Below, one piece after another: positions 33,816-47,556 of a stretch of DNA of 64,000 nucleotides. This stretch comes from Minwuia sp. (lineage in GTDB: Bacteria; Pseudomonadota; Alphaproteobacteria; Minwuiales; Minwuiaceae). The notes under the pieces were generated by a model. The model worked only from the letters and a program-made list of their open reading frames with translations, ran no database searches and was not told the origin of the DNA. The stretch lies in the NCBI GenBank assembly GCA_029210175.1, contig JARGPL010000019.1:62001-126000 (forward strand). The letters run 5' to 3'. Within the stretch, counting starts at the first letter, position 1. The number at the start of each line of letters is the position of its first letter. Made by a program: the position numbers and the translations under genes.

Positions 33816-34637
33816 GTGAAACGTTTCATTCTGATGATGATGGGCCTGTTCGCAATGACGGGTCAGGCGATGGCCGAAAAAGGCATGGCGGAGCCGTGGC
33901 AGCTCAACCTGCAGGAACCGGCGTCGCCGCTGGCGCAGAGCGTGACAGACTTTCACGACATCCTGCTGGTGGTGATCACGCTGATCACCCTGTTCGTGCT
34001 CGGTTTGCTGATCTGGGTGATGGTGAAGTTCAACGAGAAGTCCAATCCCGTCCCCACCAAGACGTCGCACAACACGCTGATCGAAGTTGTCTGGACCGTC
34101 GTTCCCGTGCTGATCCTCGTGATCGTCGCGATTCCGTCGTTCCAGCTGCTCTATCAGTCGGATGATGTCGCTGACGCCGAGATGACGCTGAAGGTCACGG
34201 GCTACCAGTGGTATTGGGGTTACGAGTATCCCGACCAGGGGGGCATCGCCTTCGAAGCCTACATGAAGGCCGATGATGAGCTGCTGCCCGGTGAACCCCG
34301 TCTGCTGACCACCGACACTGCGGTGGTCATTCCCGTGAAGACCAACATTCAGGTTCTGGTGACGTCTGCCGACGTCGGTCATTCCTGGGCACTTCCCGCG
34401 AACGGGCACAAGACGGATGCCTGGCCGGGCCGGACCAACCATCTGCCGCTCTATATCGATGAGCCGGGGATGTATTACGGCCAGTGCTCGGAACTGTGCG
34501 GACGCAACCACGGCTTCATGCCGATCATGGTGAAGGCTGTGCCGAAAGAAGAATTCGACGCCTGGGTCGCGACCCAGCAGGCCGCCATGGGCATCACGCC
34601 GCCCAAGGTCGACGTCGCCCAGATCTCAGGTAACTGA
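33816..34637 (+). CDS. coxB: Cytochrome c oxidase subunit II
   Basis: Subunit II carries the binuclear CuA centre that receives electrons from cytochrome c. The 273-residue protein has a signal peptide, two transmembrane helices (about residues 40-110), and the CuA domain with YQWYWGYEYP, DVGHSWALPANGHK and the ligand set in GQCSELCGRNHGFMPIMV. The start is a GTG. Subunit I follows after 39 bp, and the order through SURF1 is that of an aa3-type oxidase operon. Confidence 0.97.
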   Translation: MKRFILMMMGLFAMTGQAMAEKGMAEPWQLNLQEPASPLAQSVTDFHDILLVVITLITLFVLGLLIWVMVKFNEKSNPVPTKTSHNTLIEVVWTVVPVLILVIVAIPSFQLLYQSDDVADAEMTLKVTGYQWYWGYEYPDQGGIAFEAYMKADDELLPGEPRLLTTDTAVVIPVKTNIQVLVTSADVGHSWALPANGHKTDAWPGRTNHLPLYIDEPGMYYGQCSELCGRNHGFMPIMVKAVPKEEFDAWVATQQAAMGITPPKVDVAQISGN

Positions 34638-34673
34638 TCCGCCGCGAACGGATACGAAGAAAGAAAGGCCTAA

Positions 34674-36296
<1,623 letters not shown>

Positions 36297-36334
36297 TCGG
36301 AACGGAACGCAAAGAAGGAAATGGTTCAGAGCAT

Positions 36335-37258
36335 ATGAGCGACATCACCTACGCATCCAATGACGGCAGCACCGCTGCCCCGCGAGAGGCCAGCGCAGGC
36401 GATTACATTGCCCTGCTGAAGCCGCGGGTGATGTCGCTTGTTCTCTTCACCGGCCTGATCGGTCTCGTCGTGGCACCGGGGGCAATCCACCCTGCCATGG
36501 CGGCCATCGCGCTGATCTGCATTGCTGTCGGTGCCGGGGCGTCCGGGGCGATCAACATGTGGTTCGACGCGGACATCGATGCGGTCATGGAACGGACAAG
36601 CAAGCGTCCGATCCCCCGTGGCCGGATCGAACCGCATGAGGCACTGACCTTCGGGCTGTTCCTTGCCGCGGCGTCGGTATTCACCATGTTCCTGCTGGTC
36701 AATCTGGCGGCTGCCGGGTTGCTGGCCTTCACGATCTTCTTCTACGTCGTCATCTACACCATGTGGCTGAAACGCCGCACGGTTCAGAACATCGTCATCG
36801 GTGGCGCAGCCGGTGCCTTCCCGCCCGTGATTGGCTGGGCGGCAGTGACCGGTGGGCTGGAACTTCCGGCCTGGGCCATGTTCCTGCTCATCTTCATGTG
36901 GACACCGCCGCACTTCTGGGCGCTGGCCCTGTTCCGGCGTGGCGACTATGCCGCTGCCGGGGTGCCGATGCTGCCTGTCGTCAAGGGTGAGGCAAGTACC
37001 CGCCGCCAGATTGTCGGCTATACGGTGCTGATGCTGGCCGCGTCCGTCACGCCGCTGTTCTTCGGTATCGGCGGTCTGGCCTACATGATCGGCGCAGCTG
37101 CCCTGGGCATCACGTTCCTGGCGATCTCCTTCCTGGTCCTGCGGGAACAGGAAGGCACCTATTGCTGGGCCGGGCGTCTGTTCGGTTTCTCCATCTTCTA
37201 TCTGTTCGCGCTCTTCGCGCTGCTGCCTGTCGGCACACCCATCGTTCTGGGGCTCTGA
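36335..37258 (+). CDS. ctaB: Protohaem IX farnesyltransferase
   Basis: CtaB (haem O synthase) adds a farnesyl group to haem b, the first step to haem a for the oxidase. The 307-residue membrane protein has seven or more hydrophobic helices and the prenyltransferase motif [20 protein letters not shown]. The aspartates there bind the prenyl diphosphate via magnesium. ATG 36335 is used; an earlier in-frame ATG at 36293 would overlap the ctaD stop. It ends at the start of the small coxF gene. Confidence 0.96.
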
Positions 37259-37419
37259 TGACCATGGCCATGACACCGGAAGACGAGAAGCGGCGTCACG
37301 GGCGTAACCGGGCCATTGCCCTGGCGCTCGCCGCATTTGTTGTCCTGATCTTCGTCGGCTCCGTCGTGAAGATGACCAACGGCGTGATCCCGCAACTCGA
37401 TGTGGAGATCGGTCGATGA
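37258..37419 (+). CDS. coxF: CoxF-like small cytochrome oxidase assembly protein
   Basis: This is a 53-residue protein with a charged start (EDEKRRHGRNRAIALALAAF) and one transmembrane helix (IALALAAFVVLIFVGSVV) ending KMTNGVIPQL. Short proteins of this form sit between ctaB and ctaG in alphaproteobacterial oxidase operons and are called CoxF. The start codon overlaps the ctaB stop, and the stop overlaps the ctaG start, so it is translationally coupled on both sides. Its exact role is not known. Confidence 0.85.
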   Translation: MTMAMTPEDEKRRHGRNRAIALALAAFVVLIFVGSVVKMTNGVIPQLDVEIGR

Positions 37420-38030
37420 CAGAACCCGCAAACGACAGCAGGTCCGACCGCAGCAGCACCGGGAACAATCGCAATCGCCGTCTGGTCTTCGCCTGTGTTG
37501 GCGTTGTTGGCATGATGCTGGCCGCGTCCTATGCAGCTGTGCCCCTGTACGACCTGTTCTGCCGGGTGACCGGATACGGTGGTACGACACAGCAGGCGGA
37601 TACCGGCGCGGATCATGTGGGCAAACGCATGGTCACCGTGCAGTTCGATGCCAATGTGGCCCGTGGCATGCCGTGGGAATTCAAGCCGGTTCAGCGTGAA
37701 ATCAAGCTGCTGACGGGTGAGACGGGGATCGCGTTCTATCGCGCCACCAACAATACCGATCGCACGATCGTCGGGACGGCAACGTTCAACGTCACCCCGC
37801 TGAAGGTCGGTTATTACTTCAACAAGATCGAATGTTTCTGCTTCACCGAACAGGTGCTTGCACCGGGACAGTCCGTCGACATGCCGGTCCAGTTCTTCGT
37901 GGATCCGGAAATGGAAGACGACCGCAATGCGGATGAGGTGAAACTGATCACCCTGTCCTACACTTTCTTCGAACGGCCACCAGAGCAGGCCGCATCGTCA
38001 ACGATCCAGATGAGTGCCGTTCAGCAATGA
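37416..38030 (+). CDS. ctaG: Cytochrome c oxidase assembly protein CtaG/Cox11
   Basis: CtaG delivers copper to the CuB site of subunit I. The 204-residue protein has one N-terminal membrane helix (LVFACVGVVGMMLAASYAAV), PLYDLFCRVTGYGGT, and the copper-binding KIECFCFTEQ with two cysteines in the beta-sandwich facing the periplasm. It overlaps coxF by 4 bp and ends 26 bp before ctaE, as in other alphaproteobacteria. Confidence 0.97.
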   Translation: MTEPANDSRSDRSSTGNNRNRRLVFACVGVVGMMLAASYAAVPLYDLFCRVTGYGGTTQQADTGADHVGKRMVTVQFDANVARGMPWEFKPVQREIKLLTGETGIAFYRATNNTDRTIVGTATFNVTPLKVGYYFNKIECFCFTEQVLAPGQSVDMPVQFFVDPEMEDDRNADEVKLITLSYTFFERPPEQAASSTIQMSAVQQ

Positions 38031-38056: not shown

Positions 38057-38893
38057 ATGGCAGACGCACACGCCAAGAATCATGACTACCATCTGGTAGA
38101 TCCGAGTCCGTGGCCGATCGCGGGGTCAATCTCCGCCTTCGTCACGGCGGTCGGTGCCATCACGTGGATGCACGCCGAAGAAGGCGCTGGGATGATTCCC
38201 GGGATCGTCTTCTGGGTGGGTATGCTCGGCATCCTCTACACCATGTTCGTCTGGTGGCGTGACGTCATTTCCGAGGCGGAGCACAAGGGTGATCACACCC
38301 CTGTTGTGCAGTTGCACCATCGTTATGGCATGGTGCTGTTCATCGCGTCGGAGGTCATGTTCTTCGTCGCCTGGTTCTGGGCATTCTTCAATGCGAGCCT
38401 GTTCCCGACCGACGCCATGGGCGGGATCTGGCCGCCGGAAGGCATTCAGGTCTTCGACCCCTGGCACCTGCCGTTCCTGAACACCGTCATCCTGCTGCTG
38501 TCCGGGACCACCGTCACCTGGGCGCATCACGCGCTGGTGTCGGGCGACCGCAAGGGCCTGGTCAATGGTCTGATCTGCACCGTCATCCTGGGCGCCATGT
38601 TCAGCGGCGTGCAGGCATACGAATATGCCCACGCGCCGTTCAGCTTCTCCGGCGGCATCTATGGCGCAACCTTCTACATGGCGACCGGTTTCCACGGCTT
38701 CCATGTTCTGGTCGGCACCATCTTCCTGCTGATCTGCCTGATCCGCGCGACGAAGGGCCATTTCAAGCCCGACCACCACTTCGGCTTCGAAGCTGCGGCC
38801 TGGTACTGGCACTTCGTTGATGCTGTCTGGCTGTTCCTGTTCTGCGCCATCTACTGGTGGGGCAGCATCGGCGCCGATATCTACCACGGCTGA
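38057..38893 (+). CDS. ctaE: Cytochrome c oxidase subunit III
   Basis: Subunit III supports the stability and proton uptake of the oxidase. The 278-residue protein has seven hydrophobic segments. [30 protein letters not shown] and [14 protein letters not shown] are characteristic, and the C-terminal [17 protein letters not shown] is the conserved signature. It starts behind AGGGAGCTGG. A shorter paralogue-like protein is encoded about 500 bp downstream. Confidence 0.97.
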
Positions 38894-39044
38894 TCAATAC
38901 CGGAATTTCGACCGGGGGCCGTGCCAGCGAACATGCTGGTGCGGCCCTTCGCGTTTGGGGTTCTGACATTGGGCCAGCCCCGCCCCTGCCCTGCCGTAAT
39001 ACGCTCCCGCGTGCGCCCGGCAACCAGACCTGTGAGGCCAGCAG

Positions 39045-39410
39045 ATGAACGAGAACTATATCTCTCCCTTTCGTGCCGGGCTGACGGCCCGCTGCCCGAG
39101 ATGCGGCGAAGGCAAGTTGTTCAGCGGCTACCTGGAAGTGGCGGAGGGATGCGATGTCTGCGAACTGGATTTTTCCAACGTCAATTCCGGCGATGGTCCG
39201 GCGGTTTTCATCATCCTGATCATGGGTGCAGTCACGGTCACACTTGCCCTGCTGGTGGAGGTCAATTTCCAGCCACCGCTTTGGCTGCACGTCGTGCTGT
39301 GGGCACCGTTCATTCTGGGCGGCTCACTGGCGCTGCTGCGGCCCTTCAAGGCAACGATGATCGCGTTGCAGTTCAAGTATGAAGCATCACAGGACGTGGA
39401 TGTCGAATAG
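39045..39410 (+). CDS. DUF983 family protein
   Basis: This 121-residue protein has an N-terminal Cys4 metal-binding motif (ARCPRCGEGKLF and EGCDVCELDF) and two transmembrane segments (GPAVFIILIMGAVTVTLALLV, LHVVLWAPFILGGSLALL). DUF983 proteins typically sit between cytochrome oxidase subunit III and SURF1 in alphaproteobacteria and probably help oxidase assembly, but the function is not established. The stop overlaps the next gene by 11 bp. Confidence 0.9.
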   Translation: MNENYISPFRAGLTARCPRCGEGKLFSGYLEVAEGCDVCELDFSNVNSGDGPAVFIILIMGAVTVTLALLVEVNFQPPLWLHVVLWAPFILGGSLALLRPFKATMIALQFKYEASQDVDVE

Positions 39411-39963
39411 CCCCGGAATCGGCGCACTGCCCCTGCTGATCGTGCTGTCCGTGATCGCGGCAGCGACGGCAACCGGCTTCCTGGCGCTGCCACCACTGCT
39501 TGAATACTGGCTGAACCTTCGCCAGCTCGGAGCACCGGCGCAGCCGCTGGTGCTCGACTGGCCCCGGTTGTTGCTGTTGTCCCTGATCCCGGCCGTTGCG
39601 ACAGCGTTGCTCTGGCTCGTCCTGTTGAGCCGCAGTGATGAACCAAGATGGCTGGTGTCCTGCCTTGGTGCCGCTGCACTGGCGCTGCTGTTCGCGGTGC
39701 TGCAGCTGGTTCGGCACACCACCAGCTTTGACGGTCCGACCAGTATCGCGACGCAGGTCCTGTTCACGGCGGAGGGCTGGCACGGCTTCGCCATCCTGTT
39801 CGCCATCGCGATCAGCCTTCTGGCTTCCCTGCTGGGTATGGAACGGTTCTCGACCGCGCCCGGTAGCCGCATCGCCGGGGTTGCCGTGGCGTGGTACTGG
39901 ACGTTCGTGAGCCTGCTCTGGCTGGTGCTGTTGCTGTCTTGGCGCGGCCTTCAGACCGGATAG
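39400..39963 (+). CDS. Cytochrome c oxidase subunit III-like membrane protein
   Basis: This 187-residue protein has about five hydrophobic segments. I do not recognise a named family, but two conserved segments of subunit III are clearly echoed. TAEGWHGFAILFAIAISLL resembles [18 protein letters not shown] of ctaE, and VAWYWTFVSLLWLVLLLSW resembles [16 protein letters not shown]. The earlier helices are different and shorter. ATG 39400 lies inside the DUF983 gene, overlapping 11 bp. It sits between DUF983 and SURF1 in the oxidase operon, so an accessory subunit or assembly factor is likely. Confidence 0.75.
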   Translation: MSNSPGIGALPLLIVLSVIAAATATGFLALPPLLEYWLNLRQLGAPAQPLVLDWPRLLLLSLIPAVATALLWLVLLSRSDEPRWLVSCLGAAALALLFAVLQLVRHTTSFDGPTSIATQVLFTAEGWHGFAILFAIAISLLASLLGMERFSTAPGSRIAGVAVAWYWTFVSLLWLVLLLSWRGLQTG

Positions 39964-40000: not shown

Positions 40001-40708
40001 GTGCGTAATTTCCGCCCCTCATTCTGGCTGACGGCTGCCTGGCTGCCGTCGCTGGTTTTCCTGCTGTTCCTTGGCACCTGGCAGATGGATCGCCGTGCCT
40101 GGAAACTGGACCTGATCAGCGACATCGACGCCCGGATGACACAGGAATCCGTGCCCCTGCCCGAACGGATCGAAGACCCCGAAGCCTGGCGCTTTCGCAA
40201 GGTCAGCGTCACCGGCACCTTCATCCACGAAGCGGAGGCGCACCGCGTGTCGCAGCCGCGTCAGGGCACCAACGGCTTTCAGGTGCTGACCCCGCTGTTG
40301 CGCGACAACGGCACCGCCGTGATCGTTGACCGAGGCTGGATCCCGAAACCGCTGAAGGATCCTGCATCCCGCGCCGACGGCCAGATTGCCGGTCCCGTCA
40401 CCGTGACGGGCATCGTCCGGCTGAAGGGGGAGCAGACCATGTTCGTCCCCGACAATGAACCGGTCGCGAACAACTGGTTCTTTGTCGATCTTGCGGCGCT
40501 GGAAACACGCGCCGGCGTGCCTCTGCAGCAGGTCTATCTGGTCCAGACGGAATCGCCGGTGGCATGGCCGGATGCCGCGCCGCCGTCGTTCAGCCTGCGC
40601 AACAATCATCTGGAGTACGCATTCACCTGGTACAGCATGGCCGTCATCATGACGGTCATCTACATCCTGATGGGCCTGACGCGTGGCCGGGAAAGAAAAG
40701 CCAAATGA
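40001..40708 (+). CDS. SURF1 family protein
   Basis: SURF1 (Shy1) helps insert haem a into subunit I. The 235-residue product has an N-terminal and a C-terminal membrane helix: FWLTAAWLPSLVFLLFLGTWQ and EYAFTWYSMAVIMTVIYILM. Between them lies a periplasmic domain with VSVTGTFIHEAEAH and VIVDRGWIPKP. The start is GTG. The gene closes the oxidase operon, and its stop overlaps the start of the M32 carboxypeptidase gene by 4 bp. Confidence 0.95.
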   Translation: MRNFRPSFWLTAAWLPSLVFLLFLGTWQMDRRAWKLDLISDIDARMTQESVPLPERIEDPEAWRFRKVSVTGTFIHEAEAHRVSQPRQGTNGFQVLTPLLRDNGTAVIVDRGWIPKPLKDPASRADGQIAGPVTVTGIVRLKGEQTMFVPDNEPVANNWFFVDLAALETRAGVPLQQVYLVQTESPVAWPDAAPPSFSLRNNHLEYAFTWYSMAVIMTVIYILMGLTRGRERKAK

Positions 40709-44418: not shown

Positions 44419-45708
44419 CTATCTCTCGCGAAATGCCTCATGCTGCAGTTTCAGGACCGGCTGCAGCAGAAAACTGGCAACGGAGCGCGACCCGGTGTGG
44501 ACGTCGATCGTGGCCAGCATGCCGGGGCCGATCGGAAACTGCCCCGGCTGATCACCCAGATAGGACTTGTCCGTTTCCACGACGACCTTGAAGTAGGGGT
44601 CACCACGTTCATTCAGGCTGCTGTCAGGGGCGATCCGCACGACCCGTCCATCCAGACTGCCGTAACGGATGAAGTCGTAGGATGAGATCTTCACCGTCGC
44701 CCGCTGGCCGACAGTCACGAAGCCACGGTCCGTCGGACTCAGTTCCGCCTCCACAACCAGTGGGCCACCGATGGGTACGATTTCCAGGATCGGCTGGCCG
44801 GACTGGATCACCGCACCGACCGTCGACACTTTCAGATCGGCCACCACGCCATCGATCGGGCTGCGCACCGTCGTGCGACTGGCCTGTTCGGCCGCGCCGG
44901 TCAGCCGTTCGGCAACGCTGGCAATCTGCACCTCCACCGCGGCCAGTTCCGACTGGGCTTCGCGCCGATAGGATCGGGCGGCTTCCTCCTTGCGCTCCTG
45001 CGCTTCCCGCCGCTCCGACGCCGCCCGGCTCATGGCCGCATCCAGACTGCCGATCTCGCCCACCAGGCGCGCAATGTCGGCGCGTTTCTGGTTCAGCTCC
45101 AGCTGCGAGGCCAGATTGTCCCGCGCCAGATCCTCCAGCGTTGCCAGTGATTCCTGGCCCAGCGCCAGTTCCTGACCGCGTGCGTCACGGGCTGCGCGAT
45201 ATTCACGAATTTCCTCTCCCCGCTGGCGGAACTGCTGATCCAGCACCGCTTCGGCACTGCGCAGTTCCGACCGTCGGTCGGCGAACGCCCGCTGTTCCGC
45301 AAGCAGCACCTCTGGCCGGCGCTCGCTCGGCGCTGCCGGAAAGTCGGGATTCTGGCCTGCAGCCTCCGCCAGCAGGCGCGCACGCTTCAGTTCCAGACCA
45401 TCCAGCCTGACGCGCAGTTCTGCCGGGTTCTGTGCGGCCAGACCGAGTTTCAGGCGCACCAATGGCTCACCCGCAGTGACCTGCTGCCCCTCCGTCACCA
45501 TCAGGGCTTCGACAATGCCGCCTTCCAGATGTTGCACGACCTTGACGTCGCCCTGCGGCACGACCGTCCCGGGCGCGACCGCGACCTCCTCCAGCTCCGC
45601 GAACATGGACCACAGACCCAGCAGCACGATGACGAGGGCCAGCGCGCGGGCGATCCAGGCGACGGATCCGGGACGGTGGCGAGTGACAAGTTCATCCAGC
45701 GCGCTCAT
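44419..45708 (-). CDS. HlyD family type I secretion membrane fusion protein
   Basis: This is the adaptor of a type I secretion system that links the inner-membrane ABC transporter to a TolC-like channel. The 429-residue protein has one N-terminal membrane helix (WIARALALVIVLLGLWSMF), a lipoyl half (VVPQGDVKVVQHLEGGIVEAL), and long coiled coils between about residues 95 and 270. The second lipoyl half and beta-barrel follow. It overlaps the ABC permease gene by 4 bp. Confidence 0.95.
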   Translation of the reverse strand: MSALDELVTRHRPGSVAWIARALALVIVLLGLWSMFAELEEVAVAPGTVVPQGDVKVVQHLEGGIVEALMVTEGQQVTAGEPLVRLKLGLAAQNPAELRVRLDGLELKRARLLAEAAGQNPDFPAAPSERRPEVLLAEQRAFADRRSELRSAEAVLDQQFRQRGEEIREYRAARDARGQELALGQESLATLEDLARDNLASQLELNQKRADIARLVGEIGSLDAAMSRAASERREAQERKEEAARSYRREAQSELAAVEVQIASVAERLTGAAEQASRTTVRSPIDGVVADLKVSTVGAVIQSGQPILEIVPIGGPLVVEAELSPTDRGFVTVGQRATVKISSYDFIRYGSLDGRVVRIAPDSSLNERGDPYFKVVVETDKSYLGDQPGQFPIGPGMLATIDVHTGSRSVASFLLQPVLKLQHEAFRER

Positions 45709-47423
45709 GCCCGCCCCCCGGCACCGGACGTCAGTTGTTCGCGCATCTGTGCTGCGGGACCGGCGGCAGTGATCTGCCCCCCCTCCATCAGCACGATGTT
45801 CTGGCAGGCCGCCAGCAAGGCAGGGCTGTGGGTCACGGCGATCACGGTGCGGTCTTCCCCCAGGGCCTGAAGGTTGTGGGCGAGCCGGGCGGTTGCCTGC
45901 CCGTCCAGATTGCCCGTCGGCTCATCCAGCAGCAGGACTGTCGGATTGCCCAGCAAGGCACGGGCGATCGCGATCCGCTGCCGGATGCCACCGGGCAGTT
46001 CCATGCCGCCCTCCCCCACCTTCGCGCCATACCCGTCCGGCAGAGCGGAAATCGCCTCATGCACGCCAGCCAGATGAGCCACGTCGACAATCATGTCATC
46101 ACTGACACGCGGGTCAGCAATCGAGATGTTTTCGCGAATGGTGCCCGCGAACAGGAACGTATGCTGCGGCACGTATCCGATGGCACGCGCCAGATCCTCG
46201 CGTCCGTACTGGCTGATATCCGCATCATCCAGCATGACCCGACCCGCATCGGGACGATACAGCCCCTGCATCAGCTTCAGCAGCGTTGTCTTGCCTGAGC
46301 CATTGGCCCCCACCAGCCCGTGCAGCCCTGTCGAAATCTTCAGGCGCGCGTCGCGGATGGCCGGCGGACGCCCCGCCTGATATCCGAATGAGACATTGTC
46401 GAGCCAGATGGTGCCCTGCAGACCGGAAACGCTGATCGCGCCCCGCGCAGCCTCTTCCGGCGTGTTCACCACCTCACCCAGCCGCGACAGGGCCTGACGG
46501 GTGGCGGCAAAGGTGCGCCAGTTGGTCACCAGTTGCTGGAACGGCTGCACGATCCGCCCGCCGAGCATGTTCGCGGCGACCAGCGCACCGATGGACAGTT
46601 CCTGGTTCAGGATGGCGATGGCACCAACCGTCGTTGTCGCGATGGTGGTCAGCACCATCATGGTCATGCCGAGGTGAATGTAGAAATCCGAACTCGCGCC
46701 GCGGCGCAGCCCTTCCTCCACCGCACCGGCATGACGCTGTTCCCAGCTGTCGCGCATCGGCCCCTGCAGTGCCAGCGCCTTGATCGTGGTCCGGCCCCCG
46801 ATCAGCTCTGCCATCATGCTGTCGCGGTCGAACACCGCGCGCCGTTCCGTCTCGTTCGCGGCCCGCACGACACGCCCGGAATACCAGGCCAGCAGGATGA
46901 ACAGCGGAAAGACAGCCAGAAACACCCAGGCGACCGGTGCCGCCACGACAAAGATCACGATGGCGAAGATGACCGCGAATGGCAGATCCGCAACCAGTAC
47001 GGCTGACAGCCCGGAGAAGGTGTTTCGGACCGTCTCAGCATCCCGGAACAGGGCCTGCCACCAGGCGGTCGGCCTGGATTCCAGCATGGCGAGCGGTGCG
47101 CCGGTTATGCGGGCATAGAGGGCACGGGCAAGCGTGACATCGATCTCGGTCGCTGCCGCGCGCAACAGGCGCCCGCGGCCCTGACGAAGGGCAAAGTCGA
47201 ACGCGAGCGCAATCAGGACGCCGATGACAAGCCCCTGCAGCGTCGACAACCCGCCGTGAAACACCACCCGGTCGTAGACCTGCAGCACGAAAATCGGCAC
47301 CGCAATCGCCAGAATGTTGACGATGAACGACAGCGCGATGACTTCCCCCAGGCGTTTCCGCACCGGGGCAAGCAGATCGCGAAGCCAATCGCCCCCTGCG
47401 TCTGATGAAATCCTGTCCTGCAA
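45705..47423 (-). CDS. Type I secretion system permease/ATPase
   Basis: This ABC exporter has about six membrane helices and a C-terminal ATPase. Walker A is GANGSGKTTLL, Walker B is VLLLDEPTGNLD and the switch histidine is in AVTHSPAL. The signature loop reads LPGGIRQRIAIARAL rather than the usual LSGGQ, so both Ser and Gln are replaced. There is no peptidase domain at the N-terminus, as in RTX-type exporters. I set a TTG start at 47423, with AGGAG five bases upstream; the frame is open to a GTG at 47486. It precedes the HlyD gene on the same strand. Confidence 0.93.
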   Translation of the reverse strand: MQDRISSDAGGDWLRDLLAPVRKRLGEVIALSFIVNILAIAVPIFVLQVYDRVVFHGGLSTLQGLVIGVLIALAFDFALRQGRGRLLRAAATEIDVTLARALYARITGAPLAMLESRPTAWWQALFRDAETVRNTFSGLSAVLVADLPFAVIFAIVIFVVAAPVAWVFLAVFPLFILLAWYSGRVVRAANETERRAVFDRDSMMAELIGGRTTIKALALQGPMRDSWEQRHAGAVEEGLRRGASSDFYIHLGMTMMVLTTIATTTVGAIAILNQELSIGALVAANMLGGRIVQPFQQLVTNWRTFAATRQALSRLGEVVNTPEEAARGAISVSGLQGTIWLDNVSFGYQAGRPPAIRDARLKISTGLHGLVGANGSGKTTLLKLMQGLYRPDAGRVMLDDADISQYGREDLARAIGYVPQHTFLFAGTIRENISIADPRVSDDMIVDVAHLAGVHEAISALPDGYGAKVGEGGMELPGGIRQRIAIARALLGNPTVLLLDEPTGNLDGQATARLAHNLQALGEDRTVIAVTHSPALLAACQNIVLMEGGQITAAGPAAQMREQLTSGAGGRA

Positions 47424-47556
47424 GTCCGCTCCTGCGTTCAAAACTGTCGATGTGTGACTTAACCCGAAGGCTGGCGTGTTATACACCTGCTATCTTCGTG
47501 CCATCAGGCTGATTCGTTTGCTTGCCGGTATTTAAGCCAAGGGATTCCACCCCGCG

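Follow-up and report, generated by a model that had tools for sequence, protein, structure and literature searches.

What is the small membrane protein encoded between the DUF983 and SURF1 genes of a cytochrome oxidase operon in Minwuia sp., and what might it do there? The window, which is the whole stretch of 64,000 nucleotides analysed in this work, carries the gene order ctaC-ctaD-ctaB-CoxF-like-ctaG-ctaE-DUF983-X-SURF1, where X stands for the protein in question. Pfam supported all of these genes except the CoxF-like ORF, a product of 51 aa without a Pfam match, and we read the operon as an instance of type b, the mitochondrial-like arrangement described by Degli Esposti (PMC4013037, PMC6431628). 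A sequence-only reading had placed a 187-residue membrane protein at this position, and the coordinates, the length and the Pfam assignments of the neighbours agreed with it (Table 1).

Table 1. Features of the aa3 oxidase operon around X, in window coordinates
Feature	Position	Strand	Description and basis
ctaC, ctaD, ctaB, CoxF-like ORF, ctaG	33816..38030	+	Remainder of the type-b aa3 operon
ctaE	38057..38893	+	Normal seven-helix subunit III; PF00510, 345 bits
Terminator/attenuator-like hairpin	38916..38947	+	13 bp, GC-rich, between ctaE and DUF983; fold z-scores -4.9 to -6.7
DUF983 protein gene	39045..39410	+	Gene 5' of X; PF06170, 107.8 bits
AGGA, Shine-Dalgarno-like	39391..39394	+	5 nt upstream of the X ATG, within the DUF983 3' end
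Overlap of X start and DUF983 end	39400..39410	+	11 nt; from coordinates
X	39400..39963	+	187-aa five-helix COX3-family paralogue; ATG at 39400, stop codon 39961-39963; ORF/translation, PF00510, AlphaFold2 model, Foldseek
SURF1	40001..40708	+	Oxidase biogenesis protein, gene 3' of X; PF02104, 167.9 bits

The overlap of X with DUF983 likely reflects translational coupling, as judged from the gene layout. In orthologous loci the X starts also overlap or almost overlap DUF983, and the AGGA motif was seen too in those relatives' sequences that were inspected. The X stop codon and SURF1 are spaced by 37 bases. The DUF983 protein is 90-93% identical in X-bearing relatives and returned no useful match in a PDB search; a second DUF983 copy (G000:C4:30429-30734) lies outside the oxidase operon, and such a copy is found in most genomes of the order. 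It should be mentioned that two adjoining minus-strand ORFs at window positions 44419-47486 resemble, by eye, an HlyD-like type I secretion adaptor and an ABC transporter.

The membership of X in the COX3 family was supported by several searches. Both subunit III segments that had been noticed as repeated in X were present and aligned with those of ctaE (BLASTP against the local CtaE, E=1e-8, 32% identity across 90 aa), and the HMM check suggested with that observation gave a significant match to COX3 (PF00510; 28.9 bits against a gathering cut-off of 23.8), with no other Pfam family matching X at E up to 1. Against an HMM built from 57 CtaE sequences X scored 38.9 bits and its orthologues 19.9-28.5 bits; the maximum among 2000 shuffles of X, made inside helix and loop segments with the segments preserved, was 9.2 bits, and reversed X scored -2.0. 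With the limit relaxed to E up to 10, all five X orthologues matched COX3 (best E 1e-6); in a six-frame search two of the five copies were above the Pfam cut-off (27.3-27.5 bits) and three under it, one with E 0.017. Searches of PDB sequences with X returned COX3 chains and one weak unrelated match. X is thus homologous to helices IV-VII of COX3.

The AlphaFold2 model of X, calculated from five sequences and of modest confidence (pLDDT 67), consisted of five long helices; a second model with CtaE rows added was worse (pLDDT 54). When the X model was compared with the PDB by Foldseek, the best 25 matches were all COX3 with TM about 0.6, headed by a mycobacterial five-helix subunit III, and we treat this fold match as supportive because the best E was only 0.042. 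In outline, X corresponds to helices III-VII of subunit III. The suggestion that its first helices are shorter and different can be put more precisely: helix III is heavily changed, helices I-II are absent rather than shortened, and the 187 aa of X compare with 278 aa of CtaE, in which both helices are present.

X retains WP in the loop joining helices III and IV, HG from the HGxH motif (helix VI), and YWxF together with a W in helix VII. In all five copies it lacks the CtaE residues E99, E189, H216, E245, H252 and D255, each invariant among the 57 CtaE, and H216 and H252 are conserved in the CoxO, CoxP, CyoC and NorE sets as well. In terms of CtaE motifs, X is missing the second His from HGxH and both His and Asp from WHFVD. 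We take E99, the Glu of helix III, to be the position of bovine E90. Neither the seven helices with a V-shaped I-II cleft nor the full set of E90, HGxH and WHFVD residues of a canonical subunit III were found in X, which has invariant residues of its own, e.g. DWPRL, VRH, AEGWHG, APGSRIA and LLSWR/LSWR.

Relatives of COX3 with five helices are already known, and the placement of X among them was assessed by profile comparison and phylogeny. In hhalign comparisons the probability of a match to the X profile was 94% for CtaE, 18% for CoxO, 11% for NorE, 1% for CoxP and 0.4% for CyoC. The tree built on the shared region joined X to CtaE (91/97), with X on a very long stem branch of 3.3 changes per column; the identity of X to CtaE is about 25-32%. 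AU tests rejected the grouping of X with NorE (p 0.029) and with CyoC (p 0.033) and left unrejected X with CoxO (p 0.13), X with CoxP (p 0.10) and a CtaE clade without X (p 0.19). NorE is a five-helix relative of COX3 belonging to nor operons, and CyoC has the same helix number, so X could be pictured as belonging with a different heme-copper enzyme, in the manner of NorE or CyoC. Besides the AU tests, this is opposed by the gene content of the window's genome, where no nor operon, NorB or bo3 genes were found, and we regard it as barely conceivable. The NorE partner reading was rejected since the PF00115 search for heme-copper oxidases gave only CtaD (aa3) and CcoN (cbb3).

The sequence-only reading had also considered an extra subunit related to CoxO/CoxP, the five-helix COX3 relatives encoded in the coxMNOP operons of type a-III oxidases. 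A member of this doublet moved into the aa3 operon would account for the equal size and helix number of X, and CoxO, too, is without the first-helix acidic residue and without Asp in WHFVD; the two AU alternatives quoted above also leave room for it. On the other hand, both CoxO and CoxP retain the His of WHF that X has lost, the CtaE profile is far nearer, and the X profile matched none of seven CoxO/CoxP pairs. Moreover, a coxM/coxN-type partner is lacking in a genome that has only a type b aa3 and a cbb3 oxidase. We therefore consider this origin quite improbable, and the proposed link to CoxO/CoxP was abandoned: X is a single copy in a ctaCDB-G-E operon, i.e. in a different operon type, and lies nearer to CtaE in profile. 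COX3 doublets were observed at L090-L095 and L097 (genomes G100, G061, G067, G024, G109, G035 and G057), with a CoxO-like member of about 205 aa, which is without the first-helix acidic residue and the WHFVD Asp as X is, and a CoxP-like member of about 235 aa.

From these comparisons ctaE is the likely parent of X. The earlier idea of a diverged subunit III duplicate is the best-supported origin, as CtaE is nearest in profile and, with weaker support, in the tree, although the AU tests leave some other placements; because of those alternatives and the long stem branch of X, a local duplication of ctaE is favoured, not proved. X may have arisen as a fast-changing ctaE duplicate within the clade, as an older gene lost in relatives, or from an unsampled source.

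Full-length X was found in five loci of four related Minwuia genomes, namely that of the window (G000), G001 (on two contigs), G002 and G003, and in all five it occupied the same DUF983-SURF1 junction. The second DUF983-X-SURF1 contig of G001 (L015, G001:C192) encodes an X 95% identical to the first, and may come from a mixed-strain assembly. Named records with X belong to Minwuia and IMCC3096. Two genomes of the same genus (G004 and G006) and two of the family (G007 and G008) lack X, their DUF983 and SURF1 adjoining with a gap of 6-19 nt, and G005 was uninformative, with only a partial ctaE match and no operon-type DUF983 found. X was likewise absent from 35 sampled alphaproteobacterial DUF983-SURF1 junctions in which both genes were recognised (gap of at most 148 nt). 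In the other 385 genomes of the class and 398 of the phylum that were searched there was no full-length X, the matches being to the C-terminal part of ordinary CtaE. A pattern search of genome contigs, with patterns that reach close relatives only, returned only four X loci, in Minwuia and IMCC3096, and the pattern search of plasmids gave none. The expectation of a position conserved across alphaproteobacterial operons was thus not borne out: X keeps its place within one clade of marine Minwuia bacteria, to which it is restricted, and is absent elsewhere in the survey. Among the papers covered by a literature search, none was found that describes a protein of this kind.

Among the four close copies, dN/dS was 0.08-0.19 for X, 0.04-0.08 for ctaE, 0.03-0.07 for DUF983 and 0.08-0.13 for SURF1; in pairs with the window copy the values for X reached 0.35-0.41, near saturation. 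The range in the close copies places X under purifying selection, though loosely constrained, and by these estimates it is evolving faster than the neighbouring genes. Such rapid divergence, along with the loss of conserved residues and the existence of sister species without X, would also be expected of a functionless ctaE duplicate in decay. Nevertheless, the frame is open in five loci of four genomes, the close copies show low dN/dS, and at 51-54% identity to the window copy DWPRL, AEGWHG, APGSRIA and LLSWR/LSWR are still invariant, which makes decay highly improbable; the pseudogene reading was rejected on the dN/dS evidence.

The hairpin following ctaE separates the structural genes from the downstream DUF983-X-SURF1 group. 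It is present in the X-bearing species (four Minwuia genomes), with 52 of 52 cells paired and two pairs changed on both sides, a covariation whose shuffle control was weak (62 of 500 shuffles equally high). It is absent from the 24-25-nt ctaE-DUF983 spacers of G004 and G006, the congeners without X, and similar hairpins exist in some alphaproteobacteria that have no X. The consensus terminator scan did not list it, and no Rfam families were found within 33-43 kb. If this hairpin attenuates transcription, X, DUF983 and SURF1 would be made in smaller amounts than the structural subunits.

Apart from X, the window's genome has a single COX3, and with aa3 and cbb3 as its only heme-copper oxidases the aa3 enzyme is the likely partner of X. 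Subunit III supports proton uptake through the D pathway and protects the oxidase from suicide inactivation, and its cleft has been suggested to steer O2 (PMC8361435). Since X lacks the E90 equivalent and helices I-II, which form the lipid cleft, the O2 and lipid functions of subunit III, and hence a replacement of that subunit, are unlikely.

X may instead be a stoichiometric additional subunit of the mature aa3, or an alternative one used under certain conditions, e.g. as a docking surface for a partner in a supercomplex. Five-helix subunits III, those of the Flavobacterium johnsoniae ACIII-oxidase and of Mycobacterium smegmatis (CtaE), touch complex III or ACIII, and variation in subunit III may suit different interaction partners (PMC8361435). 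X is built on this five-helix plan too, and its best fold match in the PDB is a mycobacterial COX3. However, in these two organisms, as with CyoC, the five-helix protein is the main subunit III of the oxidase, whereas X occurs in addition to a complete CtaE of seven helices. The evolution of X, much faster than that of ctaE, its loss of residues retained even in CoxP, CyoC and NorE, and its grouping with DUF983 and SURF1 past the hairpin, apart from the structural genes, also count against such a role. We consider this main alternative somewhat unlikely and keep it in view because subunit III does vary, perhaps by partner (PMC8361435).

The interpretation we prefer, at evenly balanced confidence, is that X would be a lineage-specific neofunctionalised paralogue of CtaE acting as an accessory or assembly protein of aa3, and not a replacement subunit III. 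Here ctaE would have been duplicated, and truncation and rapid divergence would then have produced X, which might still bind CtaD (subunit I) or the CtaD-CtaE interface of aa3. Co-produced with DUF983 and SURF1, X could, for instance, occupy the subunit-III site for a time or stabilise it. With SURF1, CtaG/Cox11 and DUF983 it shares its gene neighbourhood and a proposed assembly or accessory role; these proteins belong to unrelated families, whereas X would derive from a structural subunit. In a narrower proposal, X would be an assembly factor derived from a duplicated structural subunit, truncated and without the E90, His and Asp residues, which would hold the subunit-III site of CtaD temporarily, during the action of SURF1 and DUF983, before CtaE takes its place; this is unlikely in our estimate. 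Subunit and assembly-factor roles cannot be separated by sequence.

The COX3 family and its five-helix forms are already known, and paralogues of COX3 were previously known from separate oxidase operons (the type a-III doublet, NorE and CyoC); what is new here is a second copy, truncated and stripped, next to a complete type-b ctaE and confined to one clade. No other alphaproteobacterium sampled here had a second truncated COX3 beside a complete ctaE of mitochondrial type. As a natural experiment, X bears on the division of subunit III into parts needed for binding and parts needed to deliver O2, take up protons and prevent suicide inactivation; it may also be a case of a structural subunit in the course of becoming an accessory protein.
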